A stretch of DNA of 64,000 nt from Pseudomonas sp. B33.4. Lineage in GTDB: Bacteria; Pseudomonadota; Gammaproteobacteria; Pseudomonadales; Pseudomonadaceae. Location: contig NZ_CP140706.1 in NCBI RefSeq assembly GCF_034555375.1, positions 1 to 64,000 on the forward strand, in the 5' to 3' direction. The notes under the pieces are model-generated. The model was not told the origin of the DNA and did no database searches. It saw only the letters and a program-made list of their open reading frames with translations. A program made the translations under genes and the position numbers. Below, in pieces: positions 9,026 through 19,955 of the stretch (the first letter of the stretch is position 1; each line of letters starts with the position of its first letter).

Positions 9026-9532
9026 TCAAGCGTTCTGGCGGTGCTGCTTTTCCAGTTTCTTCTTGATCCGGTCGCGTTTGAGCGTGGACAGGTAATCGAC
9101 GAACAATTTGCCGTTGAGGTGGTCGCATTCGTGCTGGATGCACACGGCGAGCAGGCCTTCGGCGATCAGCTCATAGGGCTTGCCGTCGCGGTCCAGCGCC
9201 TTGATTTTGACCTTTTGCGGGCGATCGACGTTTTCGTAGAAACCCGGTACCGAGAGGCAGCCTTCCTGGTATTGGTCCATTTCTTCGGTCAGCGATTCGA
9301 ACTCGGGGTTGATGAACACCCGCGGCTCGGTGCGGTCTTCGGAAAGGTCCATCACGACGATACGTTTGTGCACGTTGACCTGGGTCGCGGCAAGGCCGAT
9401 GCCCGGCGCTTCATACATTGTTTCAAACATGTCATCGACCAACTGACGCACTTCGTCGTCCACTACAGCCACAGGCTTGGCGATAGTGCGCAGACGCGGG
9501 TCCGGGAATTCGAGGATGTTTAAAATGGCCAT
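9026..9532 (-). CDS. def: Peptide deformylase
   Basis: Fe(II)-dependent hydrolase that removes N-formyl from nascent proteins. The start is ATG at 9532 ([18 protein letters not shown]), giving 168 residues, the normal size; the longer frame to 9643 adds an unconserved stretch. All three signatures are present: [16 protein letters not shown] and the HExxH-type HECDH metal site. It is divergent from the LysM gene. The following hairpin suggests def expression is partly uncoupled from fmt. Confidence 0.97.
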
Positions 9533-9692
9533 AGGCTTTGATTGCTGCACACGTTGAGTAAAGTCGGGCGATGGCCTGGCAGGTCCGAAGATGCAGGCTA
9601 CCGTTGTGAAGCGTAGCTTGTGCATTTTGCACAAGCGAGCCACGGGGGCTCTGACGTTTCACGCGAATGCACATGATAAAGGGATTCACTGC

Positions 9693-10718
9693 ATGAGGAA
9701 AACACTACTCGCCCTGCTGCTGTTGGCTTCGGCCGGCGTGGCGCAAGGGCAAGTGCAACTCAGGGATGGTTTTCCACAGCAATACACGGTGGTTTCGGGG
9801 GACACGCTCTGGGACATTTCCGGCAAATACCTGCGCGAGCCCTGGCAGTGGCCACAACTGTGGGGGGCCAATCCGCAGATCGAAAACCCCAACCTGATCT
9901 ATCCCGGCGACACGCTGACGCTCAGCTATGTCGACGGCCAACCGCGTCTGACGCTCAATCGTGGCGAGTCGCGCGGCACCATCAAGCTCTCGCCGCGTAT
10001 TCGCACCAGCCCGGTGGCCGAAGCGATTCCGAGCATTCCGCTGAAATCGATCAACAGTTTTCTGCTGAGCAACCGTATCGTCGACAAGGTCGAAGATTTC
10101 GACAAGGCGCCGTATATCGTCGCCGGCGATGCCGAGCGCGTGCTCAGCGGCACCGGTGACCGTATCTTCGCGCGCGGCCATTTCGATCCGGATCAGCCGG
10201 TCTACGGCATTTTCCGTCAGGGCAAGGTCTACACCGATCCGCAGACCAAGGAGTTCCTCGGGATCAACGCCGACGACATCGGCGGCGGTGAAATCGTCGC
10301 CACCGAAGGCGACGTCGCCACCCTCGCCCTGCAACGCACCACCCAGGAAGTGCGCCTCGGCGACCGCCTGTTCAGCGGCGAAGAGCGCTCGATCAACTCG
10401 ACTTTCATGCCCAGCGCACCTACCACCAGTATCAACGGCGTGATCATCGATGTTCCACGCGGCGTCACCCAGATCGGCGTGATGGACGTGGTCACCCTGA
10501 ACAAAGGCAAGCGCGACGGACTGGCCGAAGGCAACGTGCTGGTGGTGATGAAAACCGGGGAAACCGTGCGCGACCGTGTCACCGGTCAACCGCTGAAGAT
10601 CCCCGACGAACGCGCCGGGTTGCTGATGGTGTTCCGTACCTACGACAAACTCAGCTACGGCCTCGTTCTCAACGCTTCACGCTCGCTGGCGGTGCTCGAC
10701 AAGGTGCGAAATCCGTAA
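9693..10718 (+). CDS. LysM peptidoglycan-binding protein
   Basis: Exported 341-residue protein. ATG at 9693 begins a signal peptide (MRKTLLALLLLASAGVAQG). A LysM domain follows directly (YTVVSGDTLWDISGKYLREP ... NLIYPGDTLTL), then about 270 residues without a catalytic motif that I recognise. It probably binds peptidoglycan in the periplasm. It is conserved upstream of dprA in Pseudomonas. The frame is open from 9591, but the earlier part overlaps the def upstream region and lacks a signal sequence. Confidence 0.92.
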   Translation: MRKTLLALLLLASAGVAQGQVQLRDGFPQQYTVVSGDTLWDISGKYLREPWQWPQLWGANPQIENPNLIYPGDTLTLSYVDGQPRLTLNRGESRGTIKLSPRIRTSPVAEAIPSIPLKSINSFLLSNRIVDKVEDFDKAPYIVAGDAERVLSGTGDRIFARGHFDPDQPVYGIFRQGKVYTDPQTKEFLGINADDIGGGEIVATEGDVATLALQRTTQEVRLGDRLFSGEERSINSTFMPSAPTTSINGVIIDVPRGVTQIGVMDVVTLNKGKRDGLAEGNVLVVMKTGETVRDRVTGQPLKIPDERAGLLMVFRTYDKLSYGLVLNASRSLAVLDKVRNP

Positions 10719-11954: not shown

Positions 11955-12512
11955 ATGGTCAACAGTTGGCGTGTGCAGCAAGCCGCACGAGAGATTCGCG
12001 CCGGGGCGGTGATTGCCTATCCAACCGAAGCCGTCTGGGGGCTGGGGTGCGACCCGTGGAACGAAGAGGCAGTGGATCGGTTGCTGGCGATCAAGAATCG
12101 TTCGGTGGTCAAAGGGCTGATCCTGGTTGCCGACAACATTCGCCAGTTCGACTTCCTGTTCGAGGACTTCCCGCAAGAATGGATTGACCGCATGGCCAGC
12201 ACCTGGCCAGGGCCGAACACCTGGCTGGTGCCTCATCAGGGCTTGTTGCCGGAATGGGTGACCGGCGTGCACGACACCGTGGCACTGCGGGTCAGCGATC
12301 ACCCGCAAGTGCGTGATCTGTGCTCGATGATCGGGCCATTGATTTCGACCTCTGCCAACCCGCAGGGTCGCCCGGCAGCGCGCACGCGTTTACGGGTTGA
12401 GCAATATTTTCGTGGCCAGGTCGATCTGGTGCTGGGCGGCAGCCTTGGCGGGCGGAAAAACCCTAGCGTCATTCGCGATCTGGCGACGGGTAAGGTTATT
12501 CGTCCCGACTGA
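11955..12512 (+). CDS. tsaC: Threonylcarbamoyl-AMP synthase TsaC
   Basis: Makes L-threonylcarbamoyl-AMP from Thr, bicarbonate and ATP, the first step of tRNA t6A37 synthesis. It has 185 residues, the short TsaC/YrdC form without a Sua5 extension. YrdC landmarks are [21 protein letters not shown], the K-x-R in [11 protein letters not shown], and STSANPQG near residue 134. It starts at ATG 11955 shortly after dprA, the usual order. A strong terminator follows and closes the conserved block before the inserted operon. Confidence 0.96.
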
Positions 12513-12537
12513 CTCGATTTCCGCCTCACCTGTTTTT

Positions 12538-12570
12538 AACTCCTCGACTGTTTTGGCGAGGAGTTTTTTT
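12538..12570 (+). terminator. Rho-independent terminator after tsaC
   Basis: Stem of at least seven perfect pairs (CTCCTCG 12540-12546 with CGAGGAG 12557-12563, extendable by two A-T pairs) followed by seven Ts at 12564-12570. It isolates dprA-tsaC from the downstream five-gene operon. Confidence 0.9.
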
Positions 12571-12782
12571 CTGTCTGCGATTTATCCTTGGTCAGTCTCC
12601 ATAACTTAAACAATCTGTTGTTTATGTTGTACTGCTGTGTGTCAGATAAATCGATAAGTTGGAGGTTTCAGTAACTTTTCCCACGTCATTATCAGAAGTC
12701 GCGCAGTGGCGATATTTCCAAAAGCATCCATTATTTCAATGCGCTCAGAAAACTTCGATAAGTTAACGTCTGCGGAGAAGGA
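12571..12782 (+). promoter_or_regulatory. AT-rich control region of the five-gene operon
   Basis: A 212-bp non-coding stretch, visibly more AT-rich than its surroundings, between the tsaC terminator and the operon. It contains an inverted repeat AAACAA-TCTG-TTGTTT (12608-12623) and two exact copies of TCGATAAGTT (12651-12660 and 12755-12764). The second copy forms AACTT-CGAT-AAGTT arms. These are candidate regulator sites. No regulator gene is linked, and I do not assign -35/-10 boxes. A GGAG ribosome-binding site lies just before the first gene. Confidence 0.5.
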
Positions 12783-13451
12783 ATGGATACTACGAACTTA
12801 CAACTCAAGGATTATCTGCAGGGGCTTCAAGAGACATTAACCAGGCAGCATGCCGATTATCGTATTGTTATTCTTGATGCGGGGTCAGATGCCAGCGAAT
12901 TTGAACGATTCATCGGCCGCCAGTTTCGTCTGCGATTAAAGCATTACATGCTGACGTCCAGAGCCCGGGCACTTGAAACAAGGCTGGCGATTTCATCGCG
13001 CAGTACACATTTTCTGCTGTATCAACGCGATCAACTGACGGCGGTTTTGCGAGTGACCCCTTCGCCTTTCGAATGGGCTTCGCTGGCGCACCAGTATGTT
13101 TCTCCGACCGTGGCGCTGGCGCGTCATGTCGAGTTCAGTCGGCTGATCACGCATTCGCAACAGCACCGGCCGGTGCTGACCAATGTGCTGCTTGCAGCCG
13201 CCACCGAATGGGCGATCGATCGCGGCTATCAAGGTGTGACGGCCTTGTGCCGATCGCCACAACGGCGACTGTTCCAGCGCTTTGGCCTGACCCCGATAAC
13301 TTCCACCTCACTGCATATCGAACACCGCGCGCGCGGCGATTACTGGCTGCTGTCTGCGCAATGGCGGGAAGTCCTCACGGCGCTGCAACAACCTTTCCCC
13401 ATCAACGGCAACTACCCGGAGAATCGCGATGAATACGTCCGTCAGTTTTGA
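12783..13451 (+). CDS. LuxI/FeeM-like GNAT-fold N-acyltransferase, operon gene 1
   Basis: Protein of 222 residues that I place in the acyl-homoserine-lactone-synthase-like branch of the GNAT fold. The core VEFSRLITH (E117, S119, R120) matches the E-x-S-R signature of LuxI and FeeM-type N-acyl amino acid synthases. The segment LTNVLLAAATEWAIDRGYQGVTALCRSPQRRLFQRFGL is the usual helix-strand-helix leading to the acyl-carrier site. No transmembrane segment or LuxR partner is present. It probably acylates an amine from an acyl-ACP or acyl-CoA donor. Substrates are unknown. It overlaps the next start by 23 bp. Base composition is lower in GC than neighbouring housekeeping genes. Confidence 0.65.
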   Translation: MDTTNLQLKDYLQGLQETLTRQHADYRIVILDAGSDASEFERFIGRQFRLRLKHYMLTSRARALETRLAISSRSTHFLLYQRDQLTAVLRVTPSPFEWASLAHQYVSPTVALARHVEFSRLITHSQQHRPVLTNVLLAAATEWAIDRGYQGVTALCRSPQRRLFQRFGLTPITSTSLHIEHRARGDYWLLSAQWREVLTALQQPFPINGNYPENRDEYVRQF

Positions 13452-14163
13452 ACAACAGCTGATTCTGCTCGATCAGCGCATTGAAAAAGCGTGGACCGAT
13501 ATTCTGGATAACTCCCGGTTGGTCAAGGCCATCCGCGAAGGCAGTGTTTCCAGAGCGTTATATGCGATCTACATGATCGAAACCTTTCACTACACCGCGC
13601 ACAATGCCCGAAATCAGGGCTTGGTCGGTGTGCGGCATGCCGATAACCCTGTTTATGCGAAGTTCTGTTTTGAACATGCTGCGCAAGAAGTCGGTCATGA
13701 AAAAATGGCCTTGCATGATGTCATGAGCCTGGGGTTGAAGAATGAAGTCTTTGATGTGCCGCCGGCACTTCCGGCGACGGAAGTATTAATTGCTTATTTG
13801 TACTGGATTTCTTTTACCGGTAATCCGTTACAGCGGCTGGGATACAGTTACTGGGCGGAAAATGCTTATCACTTTATTACTCCGCTGATCGACAAGCTGA
13901 GTGAAACACTGGCGCTGAAGCCCGCTCAACTGACGTTCTTCATTGCTCATTCGGATATCGATGTCGAGCACTTCAATGAGATCAAACTCATCCTGCAGCG
14001 GACCTGCAAGTGTCAGGCTGACTGGGATGCCATTGCCACCGTGATGGAAACCAGTCTGCGCCTGACCGGCAACATGCTCGAAGCCGTTTATGAGCAGTAT
14101 GAAGCCTGGCAAAACGGCCTCGCGCCCCGTTACGAATTCCTCCATGTGCTGGATAAATCATGA
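13429..14163 (+). CDS. Haem-oxygenase-like diiron oxidase (TenA/PqqC-like), operon gene 2
   Basis: All-helical 244-residue protein resembling the haem-oxygenase-like diiron oxidase (HDO) superfamily, which performs N-oxygenation, C-C cleavage, desaturation or decarboxylation on amino- and fatty-acid-derived substrates. Candidate metal ligands are E51 and H58 (ETFHYTAHNAR), E87 and H90 (HAAQEVGHEKM) and D178 and H181 (SDIDVEHFNEI), spaced as in HDO helices. ATG at 13429 is preceded by CGGAGA within the end of gene 1. The oxidative step fits a small-molecule pathway, but the substrate is unknown. Confidence 0.7.
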   Translation: MNTSVSFEQQLILLDQRIEKAWTDILDNSRLVKAIREGSVSRALYAIYMIETFHYTAHNARNQGLVGVRHADNPVYAKFCFEHAAQEVGHEKMALHDVMSLGLKNEVFDVPPALPATEVLIAYLYWISFTGNPLQRLGYSYWAENAYHFITPLIDKLSETLALKPAQLTFFIAHSDIDVEHFNEIKLILQRTCKCQADWDAIATVMETSLRLTGNMLEAVYEQYEAWQNGLAPRYEFLHVLDKS

Positions 14164-14205
14164 CGCCCTCACGTTCATTTTCACGTCGGGCAGGCGGAGG
14201 TCGAG

Positions 14206-15300
14206 ATGGCTGATTACTTCGAGCGGTTGAACTACGCGTTGGGGGATGAAGACACAGCACTCGAGTACACGATTTTGCCCGAGCAGGCCAGGCACGTGTT
14301 GGGTGTTGCCGGCTGCGGCGGGCGGCTTCTGCCGTTGCTGGCCCGTCACCCCGCCCGCATGACTTGCGCTGATATCAGTGCGCCGCAACTGGCCTTTACC
14401 CGCTTGCGTTTAGCTTTGCTTGAGCAGACCGATCGCCAGTCGTTCATGGATTTCATGGGCTACCGGCCGGAAACGTCGGTGGCACGGCGCAAATCCATCT
14501 TTCGCCTTCTGGATCTGCCTCCGCTTGATCGCCGCTGGCTGGCGGACTTGTTTCATTCCCGTCATTGGCAGGCACCGATTTACCAAGGGGCCTTCGAGCA
14601 GACTCTGCAGCGGTTGGCGAAGATCAATGGTTTGTTCACCGGCAAGGCGGGGCGGGCGATTTTCCAGTTCCGTGATCTGGAAGAGCAATCGGCTTATTAC
14701 CAAAGCCGGTTTCCCCTCAAGCGCTGGAAAGCTGTGATCGCCTTGTTGGGCAACGCAGCGGTGCTCAATTCGCTGTTGTACAAAGGCGCGTTTCCCCGCA
14801 ACAACCTGGGTATCAGTTCTCGAGAGGTGTATCTGGATATTTTCCATACCTTGTTTACCACCCAGGTCGTGCGCGAAAGCTTTTTCCTGCAAATGCTGTT
14901 TTTCGGTGAACTGCGATATCCGCAGGGCTTTCCGCTGGAGTGCGATCCACAGGTTTTTCAACTGGCACGCAAGGCGCAGCAGCAATGCCGGTTGACTGTG
15001 GTGCAGGGCGATATCTTCGACTGTGCTTCGAGCTGCAGGGATGTCGACTTTGTCTCGTTTTCCGACGTGCCTTCATTCCTGCCGGCGGAGGTTGGCATGG
15101 ATGTCCTGCAGCGACTCCGGCCCGCCTTGGGCGAGGATGCGCTGACGGTTATTCGTGGCCATTTGCATGTGGTCAGGCCCGATAGCGCAGGCTTCTGCGA
15201 CGTTACCGCGCAGTTTCAGGACGCGATCGCACGAGAAAAAACTCAACTCTGGCGAGTACAGGTCTATCGCCAGACATCATCTGTGCAGGTATCTCGATGA
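14206..15300 (+). CDS. DUF3419/BtaA-like SAM 3-amino-3-carboxypropyl transferase, operon gene 3
   Basis: Protein of 364 residues starting YFERLNYALGDEDTALEYTI, like the DUF3419 family whose characterised member BtaA moves the 3-amino-3-carboxypropyl group of SAM to diacylglycerol. A SAM-site glycine loop (VLGVAGCGGRLLPLL, about 32-46) and an acidic residue after the next strand (CADISAPQLAF, D56) are visible. A second conserved patch is VDFVSFSDVPSFL. No BtaB N-methyltransferase is nearby, so betaine lipid synthesis is unlikely and another acceptor is inferred. GGAGG lies five bases before ATG 14206. Its stop overlaps the next start (ATGA). Confidence 0.7.
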   Translation: MADYFERLNYALGDEDTALEYTILPEQARHVLGVAGCGGRLLPLLARHPARMTCADISAPQLAFTRLRLALLEQTDRQSFMDFMGYRPETSVARRKSIFRLLDLPPLDRRWLADLFHSRHWQAPIYQGAFEQTLQRLAKINGLFTGKAGRAIFQFRDLEEQSAYYQSRFPLKRWKAVIALLGNAAVLNSLLYKGAFPRNNLGISSREVYLDIFHTLFTTQVVRESFFLQMLFFGELRYPQGFPLECDPQVFQLARKAQQQCRLTVVQGDIFDCASSCRDVDFVSFSDVPSFLPAEVGMDVLQRLRPALGEDALTVIRGHLHVVRPDSAGFCDVTAQFQDAIAREKTQLWRVQVYRQTSSVQVSR

Positions 15301-16565
15301 ACACACCTCATCCGACCGTCAATTGGGTCAAGAACCGTGTCCGTCAGGCGCGTGACGATCAGCAGCAATTGTTCGACGCCGGGCTCAATGGCCTGAACCT
15401 GGTGCAGCGCGATGGCAAGGTCATAGAGTTGAGCAGTGGCGAGCAATTGACCGAATTCCTCTCGTGCTCCTATCTGGGACTCGAGAGCGATCCCCGTCTG
15501 GTTCAAGGCGCAGTGCAAGCCGTCGAATCTTTCGGTGTGCAGTTTGCTGCCGCCCGCACCCGAGCGCTGCTACCGCCGATGCGCGAACTCGATGGGCAGT
15601 TGAATCGCATTTTCCAGGGGCATACGGTGACATTCAACTCGGTGGGCAGCGCCCATCTGGGTTGTTTGCCGCTACTGGGCTCCGGTGAGTTGCCTTCGTA
15701 TCCCCTGCGCCGTGGCCCGGGCTGGATCGTTGACCGCGCGGCCCATGCTTCGATGCAGGTATTGCAAGGTATTCTGTGGCAGTTCGGCCCCGTCCAGCGC
15801 TGCGATTGCAGTGATCTTCAGCAGGTCGAGGACGCCTGCTCCACCGCTGTCGCTGCCGGCAATACTCCCATTATCCTGACTGACAGCATCGGCTCGATGC
15901 GCGGGCTTTATCCCGTTAACAGGCTGCTGCAACTGGCTGAGCGCTTTGAGGGGTATCTGTATGCGGATGACGCTCACGGCACTTCGATCCATGGCCAGAC
16001 CGGGGGCGGTTATGCGCTTGATGTCGCTGCTGAGCCGTTGCGCGATCGTTTGATCCTGCTGTCGTCATTGTCCAAAGCCTTCGGCGCAACCGGCGGTGCA
16101 ATTACGGTGCTGACGTCAGCCGATGCCGAGCTGATTCGACGTCATGCGTCGACTTATACGTTCGGGGGGCCACTGTCCATGGGCGGAGTCGGTGCGGCAG
16201 TCGCTTCGGCAAAAATCCATCTATCTGCAGGTTTGCGGGAGTTGCAGGCGTCGTTATGGAAAAATGTTGAAGCAATCGATGGTCTGCTCGGGCCGTTTCT
16301 GGGCAACCATCAGATTGCTTCACCCATACGTTTCGTCCGGGTCGGAGCCGAAAGAGACGCCATCAGCCTGGCGTTGCACCTGCGTCGGCACGCCATCGCG
16401 GTCACCACGGCCTTGTTTCCGGTGGTGGCCAAAGGTGAAGCAATCCTGCGACTGGCCATCAGCGCCAATCACAGCGAGGTTCAGTTGAAGCATCTGGCCA
16501 GTGCCGTCAACGAAGGATTCGCTGAGTTGGGCATTCGTCAGGGAGAGCCGCACCATGTGCAGTGA
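15297..16565 (+). CDS. Alpha-oxoamine synthase family PLP enzyme, operon gene 4
   Basis: PLP-dependent enzyme of 422 residues in the BioF/KBL/serine palmitoyltransferase/CqsA family, which condense an amino acid with an acyl-CoA and release CO2. Family marks are FLSCSYLGLESDPRL, H150 (DRAAHAS) stacking on PLP, DDAHGTSIHG (D225, H227) and the Schiff-base lysine K260 in SLSKAFGATGG. Length is close to the usual 390-420. Linkage to an adenylate-forming ligase suggests that the acyl partner is activated within the pathway. It starts inside the gene 3 stop and overlaps gene 5 by 11 bp. Confidence 0.85.
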   Translation: MNTPHPTVNWVKNRVRQARDDQQQLFDAGLNGLNLVQRDGKVIELSSGEQLTEFLSCSYLGLESDPRLVQGAVQAVESFGVQFAAARTRALLPPMRELDGQLNRIFQGHTVTFNSVGSAHLGCLPLLGSGELPSYPLRRGPGWIVDRAAHASMQVLQGILWQFGPVQRCDCSDLQQVEDACSTAVAAGNTPIILTDSIGSMRGLYPVNRLLQLAERFEGYLYADDAHGTSIHGQTGGGYALDVAAEPLRDRLILLSSLSKAFGATGGAITVLTSADAELIRRHASTYTFGGPLSMGGVGAAVASAKIHLSAGLRELQASLWKNVEAIDGLLGPFLGNHQIASPIRFVRVGAERDAISLALHLRRHAIAVTTALFPVVAKGEAILRLAISANHSEVQLKHLASAVNEGFAELGIRQGEPHHVQ

Positions 16566-17856
16566 CCTGATGCAACGCAGTTGTGCAAAGACCGTTCAGG
16601 CTGCAGCCGCAGAGGCCTTCGCGCGTAAATTGGACTATGCGCGGTCGCTGCCGTGGTTCTGCACGCTGTGTCCGCAGATTCAACATGTACAGACCGCTGA
16701 GGATCTGCATCGGCTACCGATCTTGGCCGTGGAGGACGATCAGGGCGGATTGCTGTTTACTCACCTCAGCGAAGCGTCACATCGCGCACCGGGCGGTGGG
16801 CTGACCCTGACTTCAGGTGGCAGCACCGGCAATCGCAAGCACATCACCCATTCCTGGGCATTCAACGACAGTATCGTGCCCTTGGGTGCGCGAATGTTTG
16901 CTGCGACCAATGACCCGCCCCGTGTCGTCATCAATTGCCTGACGCCTGGTGAAATGCAGGGAGCCTTTCAATACGCGGCGGCCATCGTCCAGCACATTGG
17001 CGCGCGTCTGCTGCCTGCAGGCGCGCTGATGGGCATGCAGCGCATAGCCGGGTTGATTCATTCACAAGCGGCCGATGCTTTGATCTGCACGCCCTCGTTC
17101 GCCGAGGCGCTGTTCAATCATGCCGATGTCGATGGGGGGCAACTTCGCAGTTTGAGATGGCTCTATTACATCGGTGAACCTTGCCGTCAGCCGCTACGCG
17201 AGCAACTGGCCCGAGACTGGCCGGCCCTGAGCATTCGATCATTGGGTTATAGCTCGACAGAGACCGGCCCGATCGGTTTCCAGTGCGCGCACCTCGAGCA
17301 TGGTTTCTACCATTTGCATGCAGACGCCATGTTGCTTGAGGTGGTCGATCCTTTAAGCCTGCAATCGGTGGTGGACGGTGAACCCGGGGAGTTTCTGCTG
17401 ACCCCTTTGCTACCCGATCAGGTCCCTTTGTTGCGGTATCGCATTGGTGATCGTGGGCGAGTTTTGCCCAGGCAATCCGGCTGTGCCTGTGGCAGCGCTT
17501 TGCCAATACTGGAACTGCAGGGTCGAATCGAAGCTTCGATCAAGCTGGGCGGTGCGATCATCACTCAGCGACAGGTTCTGCGTGTGCTCGCAGAAGCGTT
17601 GCCCGAACTGCACGCTTCGGATGTGCAGGTACAGATTGATCGACAGGCCAACGGTGCACACCTGCGGTTGCTTATCGCTCAGGACCGATTACCGGCCGCT
17701 GCTGAACGTGTCATCGAACAGGCTTTGTACAACGAGGCGCAAGTGAGCGCATTGCTCAGATTGCCCGGTGTGCTGGGCATGCAGGTACAGCGTCTGCCCC
17801 GTGGTGATTTCACAACCACCCTGGCAGGCAAGACGCCTTTTTTTGTCGAGAGGTGA
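16555..17856 (+). CDS. Adenylate-forming ligase (PaaK/F390-synthetase-like), operon gene 5
   Basis: Member of the ANL superfamily, 433 residues from ATG 16555, which has GGAGAG upstream; a GTG at 16501 in frame is possible but lies deep inside gene 4. The ATP-binding loop is LTSGGSTGNRKHI (about 85-97). GYSSTETGPIG and YRIGDRGRVL are the A5- and A7-type motifs, followed by a CACG pair and GRIEASIKLGGAII. Resemblance is to phenylacetate-CoA ligase and F390-synthetase-related proteins. It should activate a carboxylate as an acyl-AMP or thioester for the operon. The substrate is unknown. Confidence 0.75.
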   Translation: MCSDLMQRSCAKTVQAAAAEAFARKLDYARSLPWFCTLCPQIQHVQTAEDLHRLPILAVEDDQGGLLFTHLSEASHRAPGGGLTLTSGGSTGNRKHITHSWAFNDSIVPLGARMFAATNDPPRVVINCLTPGEMQGAFQYAAAIVQHIGARLLPAGALMGMQRIAGLIHSQAADALICTPSFAEALFNHADVDGGQLRSLRWLYYIGEPCRQPLREQLARDWPALSIRSLGYSSTETGPIGFQCAHLEHGFYHLHADAMLLEVVDPLSLQSVVDGEPGEFLLTPLLPDQVPLLRYRIGDRGRVLPRQSGCACGSALPILELQGRIEASIKLGGAIITQRQVLRVLAEALPELHASDVQVQIDRQANGAHLRLLIAQDRLPAAAERVIEQALYNEAQVSALLRLPGVLGMQVQRLPRGDFTTTLAGKTPFFVER

Positions 17857-17862
17857 GATGTT

Positions 17863-17890
17863 CCGGGCCAGCCTCTTGAGGCTCGCCCGG
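17863..17890. terminator. Strong hairpin between operon gene 5 and qor
   Basis: CCGGGC-C-AGCCTC (17863-17875) pairs with GAGGCT-C-GCCCGG (17878-17890) around a two-base TT, giving 12 pairs and one mismatch. It has no clear T-run on either strand. Placed between convergent genes, it probably ends or protects transcripts from both sides. Confidence 0.6.
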
Positions 17891-17913
17891 GTACTTCGTC
17901 AAATAACAGTGCT

Positions 17914-19955
<2,042 letters not shown>

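Follow-up and report, generated by a model that had tools for sequence, protein, structure and literature searches.

A candidate natural-product operon of five enzymes between tsaC and qor in Pseudomonas, and its wider three-gene core

The operon and its insertion site

The window analyzed here, a stretch of 64,000 nucleotides from Pseudomonas sp. B33.4, carries between tsaC and a qor-like gene five contiguous plus-strand genes, called A to E below, which we rate as a natural-product operon whose enzyme families are known but whose recurrent combination is undescribed. Gene A (12783..13451) encodes a 222 amino acid N-acyltransferase of the FeeM/LuxI fold; gene B (13429..14163), a haem-oxygenase-like diiron oxidase (HDO) of 244 amino acids; gene C (14206..15300), a DUF3419 protein of 364 amino acids, probably an S-adenosylmethionine (SAM) aminocarboxypropyl transferase; gene D (15297..16565), a pyridoxal phosphate (PLP)-dependent alpha-oxoamine synthase (AOS) of 422 amino acids; and gene E (16555..17856), a PaaK-like adenylate-forming ligase of 433 amino acids from its ATG, ahead of which lies an alternative in-frame GTG at 16501. 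A and B overlap by 23 bp, B and C are separated by 42 bp, and C/D and D/E overlap by 4 and 11 bp, respectively. The spacings, taken from the open reading frame list, match exactly those of the original prediction, a model's reading of the DNA, and the genes lie where it placed them; its start at 12571 includes a leader of about 210 bp ahead of gene A. Its five family calls were likewise upheld, by Pfam or NCBIfam models for B to E and by fold for A, which scores below the Pfam cut-off.

Upstream, tsaC (11955..12512, plus strand) is followed by a stem-loop with a T run (12538..12571, plus strand; fold -14.1 kcal/mol, z -3.68 within 12533-12575) that makes a convincing terminator for tsaC. A second hairpin lies 3' of E (17858..17900, plus strand; fold -22.4 kcal/mol, z -4.34), followed by the convergent gene for a qor-like quinone oxidoreductase (17914..18891, minus strand). 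The predicted boundaries, a strong terminator upstream and a hairpin downstream, thus hold, although the downstream structure lacks a T run, so that 'hairpin' is correct and 'terminator' is unproven. A consensus terminator scan reported neither structure, and a consensus scan found no sigma-70-like promoters versus 2.4 expected from shuffling. The names tsaC, qor, dprA and hemF were read off the sequence alone, without a family search of the flanks.

The order dprA-tsaC-A-B-C-D-E-qor is the same in all 14 named Pseudomonas loci, where tsaC and qor lie 5.35-5.41 kb apart; the C protein of the window is 95-99% identical to that of two of them (L012 and L013). Genes in all fetched loci come from a simple home-made caller, and their starts are approximate. 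Of the best 30 tsaC loci from 59 Pseudomonas genomes searched, eight contain gene A and 22 do not, and in 21 of these 22 A-free sites tsaC adjoins qor at a distance of -1 to 299 bp, bearing out, together with the 14 carriers, the proposed insertion between tsaC and qor. The remaining A-free site has an interval of 1,091 bp; this stretch of about 1.1 kb (L124, 410-1500) contains motifs repeating in several frames, apparently a tandem repeat. The operon genes have a GC content of 0.50-0.60 versus 0.61-0.63 for the neighboring dprA, tsaC, qor and hemF, which fits acquisition, and the five-gene operon was probably acquired horizontally. Plasmid or phage cargo at the site was considered and rejected, as there is no tRNA in the window and the tsaC-qor junction is plain in all 14 named loci.

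In draws of 199 Pseudomonas genomes, orthologs of B, C, D and E occur in an identical set of 10. The B search passed 1e-25 in 21 genomes, 11 of which hold a 33-38% identical type instead; the D search passed 1e-60 in 16, six of them with only a 41-43% identical relative and one (G149) with both; and the E search passed 1e-15 in 40, 30 of them with no match above 104.1 bits. The weaker E-like matches (G000:C1:3519305-3520312 and 39 other genomes) are open frames of about 805-905 amino acids that encode a different, PaaK-like multidomain protein. Gene A is present in the 10 genomes with B-E and also alone in four others (G033, G034, G097 and G110); a 15th match, in G184, is an A-like protein of 29% identity adjoining a B-like one. 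Scattering of the genes among strains, which the original prediction named as refuting, is thus seen in part for A and not for B-E (10 of 10 together). Median dN/dS relative to the window is 0.146 for A, 0.057 for B, 0.152 for C, 0.083 for D and 0.148 for E, versus 0.039 for tsaC; the B set includes a 62 amino acid fragment from L020, a draft of P. anatoliensis, where an early stop interrupts B 62 amino acids from the start codon (9200-9955 region). Given the same gene order in 14 of 14 loci and median values of 0.057-0.152, the arrangement goes beyond chance.

In three of the four genomes with solo A (G033, G097 and G110), the gene sits at the tsaC-qor junction with no B-E remnant in the region (best E-value 0.17 by tblastn and 0.41 by blastn), while only a shorter stretch was available for G034. 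The solo proteins fall at two places among operon carriers in the A tree, forcing at least two changes, with G110 forming a long branch whose exact placement is unsure. The only close trio, G033/G034/G097, has a dN/dS of about 0.03-0.04. From the two tree positions and these purifying ratios, it appears that B-E was probably lost twice, with A retained.

Families, folds and catalytic residues

The best VIA fold match of A is FeeM, and the acyl-homoserine lactone (AHL) synthases LasI, TofI, RpaI and BjaI are all within the top 16 rows, placing A in the GNAT-related FeeM/LuxI fold. Against the Pfam model Autoind_synth, A scores 14.2 bits, under the cut-off of 24, and so is not a LuxI proper; we consider that it works like a LuxI/FeeM-type synthase but should not be filed as LuxI. 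Residues R90, R120 and Y187 are invariant across 28 aligned rows.

B matches PF14518 at 61.7 bits (cut-off 28.9) and the PDB chain 3dde at 8e-75. Its profile also matches MboA at 1.7e-5, the sole biochemically studied HDO retrieved from the PDB. The putative metal ligands, compared with the MboA list in the available text of PMC13185094, are E87, H90, E144, H174, D178 and H181, giving three His and three Glu/Asp; in 27 aligned rows, H90 is conserved in at least 90% and the other five are invariant. The accessible sections of the same paper describe MboA as the desaturase/acetylenase HDO of the mangotoxin mbo operon, which desaturates a peptide side chain and requires the reductase MboB for full conversion. 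In a phylum-wide search with the B profile, 57 of 398 genomes match, the window genome alone at subfamily level (417 bits; next 111).

C scores 64.9 bits against PF11899 (DUF3419; cut-off 28.2) and is the single DUF3419 match in the Pseudomonas sp. B33.4 genome. Its predicted model has a methyltransferase fold (pLDDT 92.1) and a Rossmann motif is present. By sequence no confident PDB relative of C was found (one match, E 0.02), and no BtaA-type chain is in its fold-match list, an absence from the list that is not an exclusion. D reaches 393.7 bits against NCBIfam PRK07505 (cut-off 342), making it an alpha-oxoamine synthase, and its closest solved chain is 8xha (6.2e-44), which is Alb29, an enzyme that uses L-Glu (PMC11906848, available portion). 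The PLP lysine motif SLSK (257-260) aligns with those of Alb29 and KBL, and H150 was assigned by motif. Assignment of D as BioF was rejected, since it scores 137.4 bits against the bioF equivalog, whose cut-off is 426.45.

E belongs to the AMP-binding superfamily, with 41.1 bits against PF00501 (cut-off 29.9) and a match to the PDB chain 4r1l (1.6e-20). Core motifs of adenylate-forming ligases lie at 86-95, 232-239, 295-301 and 424-430. As PaaK proper it was rejected (47.2 bits versus an equivalog cut-off of 646.3).

Related clusters in Pseudomonas and other phyla

A scan of species genomes with the C alignment gave 125 relatives, of which the best 80 loci were kept, 14 of them from Pseudomonas. 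Among these 80 plus a Deefgea plasmid locus, B lies directly 5' of C in 15 non-Pseudomonas loci from three phyla: Sorangium, Pyxidicoccus, seven Corallococcus loci, a Lysobacterales metagenome-assembled genome, Trinickia, two Flavobacteriaceae, Aestuariibacter and Deefgea. A adjoins B-C in 12 of the 15; in L028, a single open frame containing N stretches covers both A and B. The A profile was built partly from loci on which it was run, and an independent single-sequence search found A in L029-L032, L034, L035 and L037. No E relative was found within the stretches of the 15 loci, and the only D relative is a weak match about 7.5 kb from B in L044. Neither A nor B turned up in these searches at the remaining 52 C loci (L036, L039-L043, L045, L046 and L048-L091), a number of which are short contigs. 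Many of these, mostly from Bdellovibrionota, have a different operon with diacylglycerol (DAG)-kinase-like, thioester-reductase-like and acyl-ACP-reductase/PigE-like genes, which may make ether or betaine lipids.

We built a tree from 73 C proteins, of which 67 are from L026-L092 and six from the 24 Pseudomonas C loci, BtaA not included; a single branch (support 100/100) separates the 21 B-linked C's from the rest. Corallococcus exercitus AB043A has two copies, one (L037) in the clade of Pseudomonas and the SpeD-linked loci described below and the other (L031) among the myxobacterial sequences, showing that the module has moved between phyla. A-B-C is thus a wider, mobile core, with which D-E is seen only in Pseudomonas. 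The implied single five-gene unit is not borne out, given the 15 loci where B-C (in 12 cases beside A) lacks D-E and the solo A in 4 of 199 genomes; on the C tree, the C neighborhoods and solo A, we rejected the five genes as an indivisible pathway.

The neighbors of the core vary. An FMN_bind_2-like protein is encoded near B-C in 10 of the 15 loci and SpeD in three (Deefgea, Trinickia and one Corallococcus). The three SpeD-linked C's form a clade (99/97) and join Pseudomonas and L028 in a 10-row clade at 99/93. The Deefgea locus is the only plasmid record among the 15 and is flanked by IS3 (upstream) and IS30 (downstream) genes. Its order on the Deefgea piscis plasmid (L092, NZ_CP054144.1 25179-29699) is A-B-C-speD-monooxygenase-like-serine hydrolase, between the two transposase genes. 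A serine hydrolase is also present in L035, and an RND pump is in the L047 neighborhood. The Flavobacteriaceae loci L038 and L044 have three additional genes after C in common. In L038, from Flavobacterium, two of these three encode a fatty acid desaturase and an O-acyltransferase resembling OlsF/GlsA, whose 146.6 and 102.3 bits fall short of the NCBIfam cut-offs of 620 and 260; a further, weak GNAT-like protein (E 0.093) is also encoded near the core. Such a gene set is expected for an acyl-amino-acid lipid.

Relatives of A and B occur with ligases in two other Pseudomonas cluster types, which, like the D-relative loci, were recounted by tblastn as the gene caller had missed A'/B' or other genes in some. 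The Psa type (L093 and L179-L184) has in 7 of 7 loci an anthranilate synthase component I, a PaaK-like ligase, A', B', an FMN-reductase-like protein and a hydrolase; its annotated plasmid representative (L093, NZ_CP011973.1 27173-35817) additionally has anthranilate synthase component II, a LuxR-family regulator and an EamA transporter. These clusters are on chromosomal contigs or plasmids and are P. syringae-type; Pseudomonas accounts for 23 of the 36 matching records in the plasmid collection. B' is 34.7% identical to B. The FadD type has in 5 of 5 loci (L178 and L185-L188) a FeeM-like A'', a SnoaL-like protein, B'' and a long-chain acyl-CoA synthetase-like ligase; in G007, G044, G073, G096 and G184 the one stop flagged in the B'' match is the end of the called gene, and the frame is open for 217-231 amino acids. 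By tblastn at 1e-5, neither C nor D was found in the seven Psa-type or the five FadD-type loci. An adenylating ligase therefore accompanies A-B in 12 of 12 loci over the two types.

The D relatives, in contrast to these, lie without E. In 7 of 7 Pseudomonas loci (L141-L147, from the six operon-free genomes and G149), they are part of a common seven-gene cluster whose families, named on L141 alone, are an FAD oxidoreductase, a PrmC-like methyltransferase, the oxoamine synthase, a chorismate mutase, a PabAB-like synthase, a prephenate-dehydrogenase-like protein and an MFS exporter. We take this set to be a p-aminophenylalanine-type pathway. No E relative was found in the seven loci at 1e-8.

A proposed pathway and its alternatives

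We propose that the operon makes a small acylated amine without nonribosomal peptide synthetase (NRPS) or polyketide synthase (PKS) enzymes. C would transfer the 3-amino-3-carboxypropyl group of SAM to an acceptor, yielding an alpha-amino acid; D would join this amino acid to an acyl-CoA in a decarboxylative condensation, giving an alpha-aminoketone; A would N-acylate the amine using an acyl group activated by E; and B would desaturate or otherwise oxidize the N-acyl product. The logic would be that of TyzA/TyzC, N-acylation followed by O2-dependent desaturation, with a diiron enzyme replacing the flavin oxidase. The contexts of A-B pairs fit such a sequence, and flavin-binding proteins and reductases near many B's would fit a need like that of MboA for MboB. 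C would contribute a SAM-derived unit that A-B pairs elsewhere are without. Because the SpeD-linked C's are in the same clade as those of Pseudomonas, D and SpeD could be alternative routes for removal of the SAM carboxylate: SpeD in the related clade would remove it beforehand, and D would remove it in Pseudomonas. An AOS that takes SAM itself is known in CqsA. Position V79 of ThAOS also bears on the substrate of D. According to the portion of PMC11906848 consulted, V79A/G variants extended the range to further amino acids including l-Hsr and l-Oas. D has Ala at the presumed V79 position, where KBL has Val; from this residue, and from D relatives beside makers of unusual amino acids, we infer that D may take the product of C. 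The analysis establishes the enzyme families with their folds and catalytic motifs, the operon, its linkage and insertion site, and its modularity; the substrates, the step order and the product belong to a tentative model to which, as a whole, we give somewhat less than even weight.

Several observations weigh against the model. The only DUF3419 activity known to us is that of BtaA, and any acceptor for C is conjectural. No transporter, regulator or reductase is found among the five proteins by Pfam, nor is any flavin-binding protein present in the Pseudomonas operon. The alignment at V79 may be off by one residue, since Alb29 has Ser aligned there and Leu one before, and the available text of PMC11906848 gives Leu as its residue; D has Ala in both registers. 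In Sorangium (L026) and Pyxidicoccus (L027) the search for A next to B-C came up empty, and L033 ends at a contig edge. The C loci of Bdellovibrionota and kin have DAG-kinase-like and acyl-reductase-like neighbors. As SpeD is near B-C in only 3 of 15 loci and Pseudomonas sp. B33.4 has its own speD elsewhere in the genome, C may instead transfer an aminopropyl group here. Finally, A may have a product of its own, given its solo persistence in 4 of 199 genomes and the low dN/dS of the one close trio.

The original prediction had the ligase feed the oxoamine synthase. In this scheme E makes an acyl-CoA, D condenses it with Gly, Ala or Ser, and A, B and C decorate the aminoketone, C alkylating a hydroxyl or amine. 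AOS enzymes require an acyl-CoA, and the neighboring genes D and E overlap by 11 bp and occur in the identical 10 of 199 genomes, so the proposal is possible; however, the context favors transfer from the ligase to A at least equally, with ligases accompanying A-B in 12 of 12 loci that yielded no D, D relatives without an E relative (7 of 7), and B-C, mostly with A, without D-E in 15 loci. We rate this scheme unlikely, with a real chance of being correct. In an aminolipid pathway, C would work on a lipid hydroxyl in the way BtaA does, A would attach a fatty acyl group as an amide, like OlsB in the synthesis of ornithine lipids, and B and D-E would alter the head group or tails of a membrane lipid. 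Such a pathway would explain the three genes shared after C in L038 and L044, with the sub-cut-off O-acyltransferase and the desaturase of L038, as well as the DAG-kinase-like and acyl-reductase-like genes that adjoin B-free C's. The RND pump of L047, the serine hydrolases of L035 and L092, and SpeD fit a released small molecule better, and PaaK-like ligases such as E are associated with aryl or short acids; we consider a lipid product quite unlikely. Least probable in our estimate is a signaling role, in which A alone makes an N-acyl signal that B-E convert to a second product. Such a role would account for the retention of A alone, under purifying selection in the testable trio, after apparently two losses of B-E, and for the high rank of AHL synthases among its fold matches. 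Yet A is under the Autoind_synth cut-off, and no regulator gene was noticed beside the operon in the open reading frame list, although no LuxR-directed search was made.

Returning to the acylated-amine model, the nearest described systems share parts of it. The tyz/oxz acyl-oxazolone pathways (TyzA, TyzB, TyzC; OxzA, OxzB) likewise use a FeeM/LuxI-fold N-acyl amino acid synthase and then an O2-dependent oxidase (PMC10404671, available sections). Unlike the operon, with its diiron HDO, DUF3419 protein, AOS and PaaK-like ligase, they have a flavin oxidase and a ThiF-homolog cyclase; no ThiF cyclase or nitroreductase-family oxidase matched among the five proteins in Pfam or NCBIfam. The mbo operon shares an HDO with three His and three Glu/Asp ligands, matched by the B profile, but has ATP-grasp peptide ligases and a flavin/Fe2S2 reductase (MboB), none of which are among A-E (PMC13185094, in part). 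BtaA transfers the SAM aminocarboxypropyl group, according to the accessible text of PMC10491745. C has the family PF11899, as a group to which we take BtaA also to belong, and the methyltransferase fold in common with it; C differs in falling in a B-linked branch within the sampled loci, in a tree that does not include BtaA. Alb29, the albogrisin AOS, has the closest solved structure to D; compared at the enzyme level, it serves a Streptomyces pathway and uses L-Glu and acyl-CoAs (PMC11906848, available portion). The P. syringae plasmid cluster has the same combination of A', B' and ligase, with chorismate-derived precursor genes in place of C and D, which were not found in its stretches. No product of the Psa-type cluster was found in the literature examined. 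The available parts of the Psa plasmid papers name anthranilate synthase genes only in passing, and those of a P. s. tagetis paper list an anthranilate synthase component 1 mutant with no apparent link to the cluster. The literature searched, with few subscription journals and few preprints, describes no cluster with this five-family set, in agreement with the original prediction, and contains no paper pairing DUF3419 with Pseudomonas.

A broader proposal, which we regard as doubtful, is that A-B-C forms the core of an unrecognized NRPS-independent pathway family in at least three phyla. The SAM carbon chain would become an amino-acid unit, its carboxylate would be lost via SpeD (Deefgea, Trinickia and one Corallococcus) or via the C-C-bonding D (Pseudomonas), and the N-acyl product would undergo diiron desaturation. 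If true, this would be a small pathway family of three to six enzymes that works without carrier-protein megasynthases, in which a diiron oxidase, a SAM aminocarboxypropyl transferase and an oxoamine synthase act on one scaffold. We expect such clusters to be hard to spot for miners centered on NRPS and PKS genes. In the solo-A genomes the first step would be found already separated by nature from the remainder, and the DUF3419 family would gain a role beyond betaine lipids.

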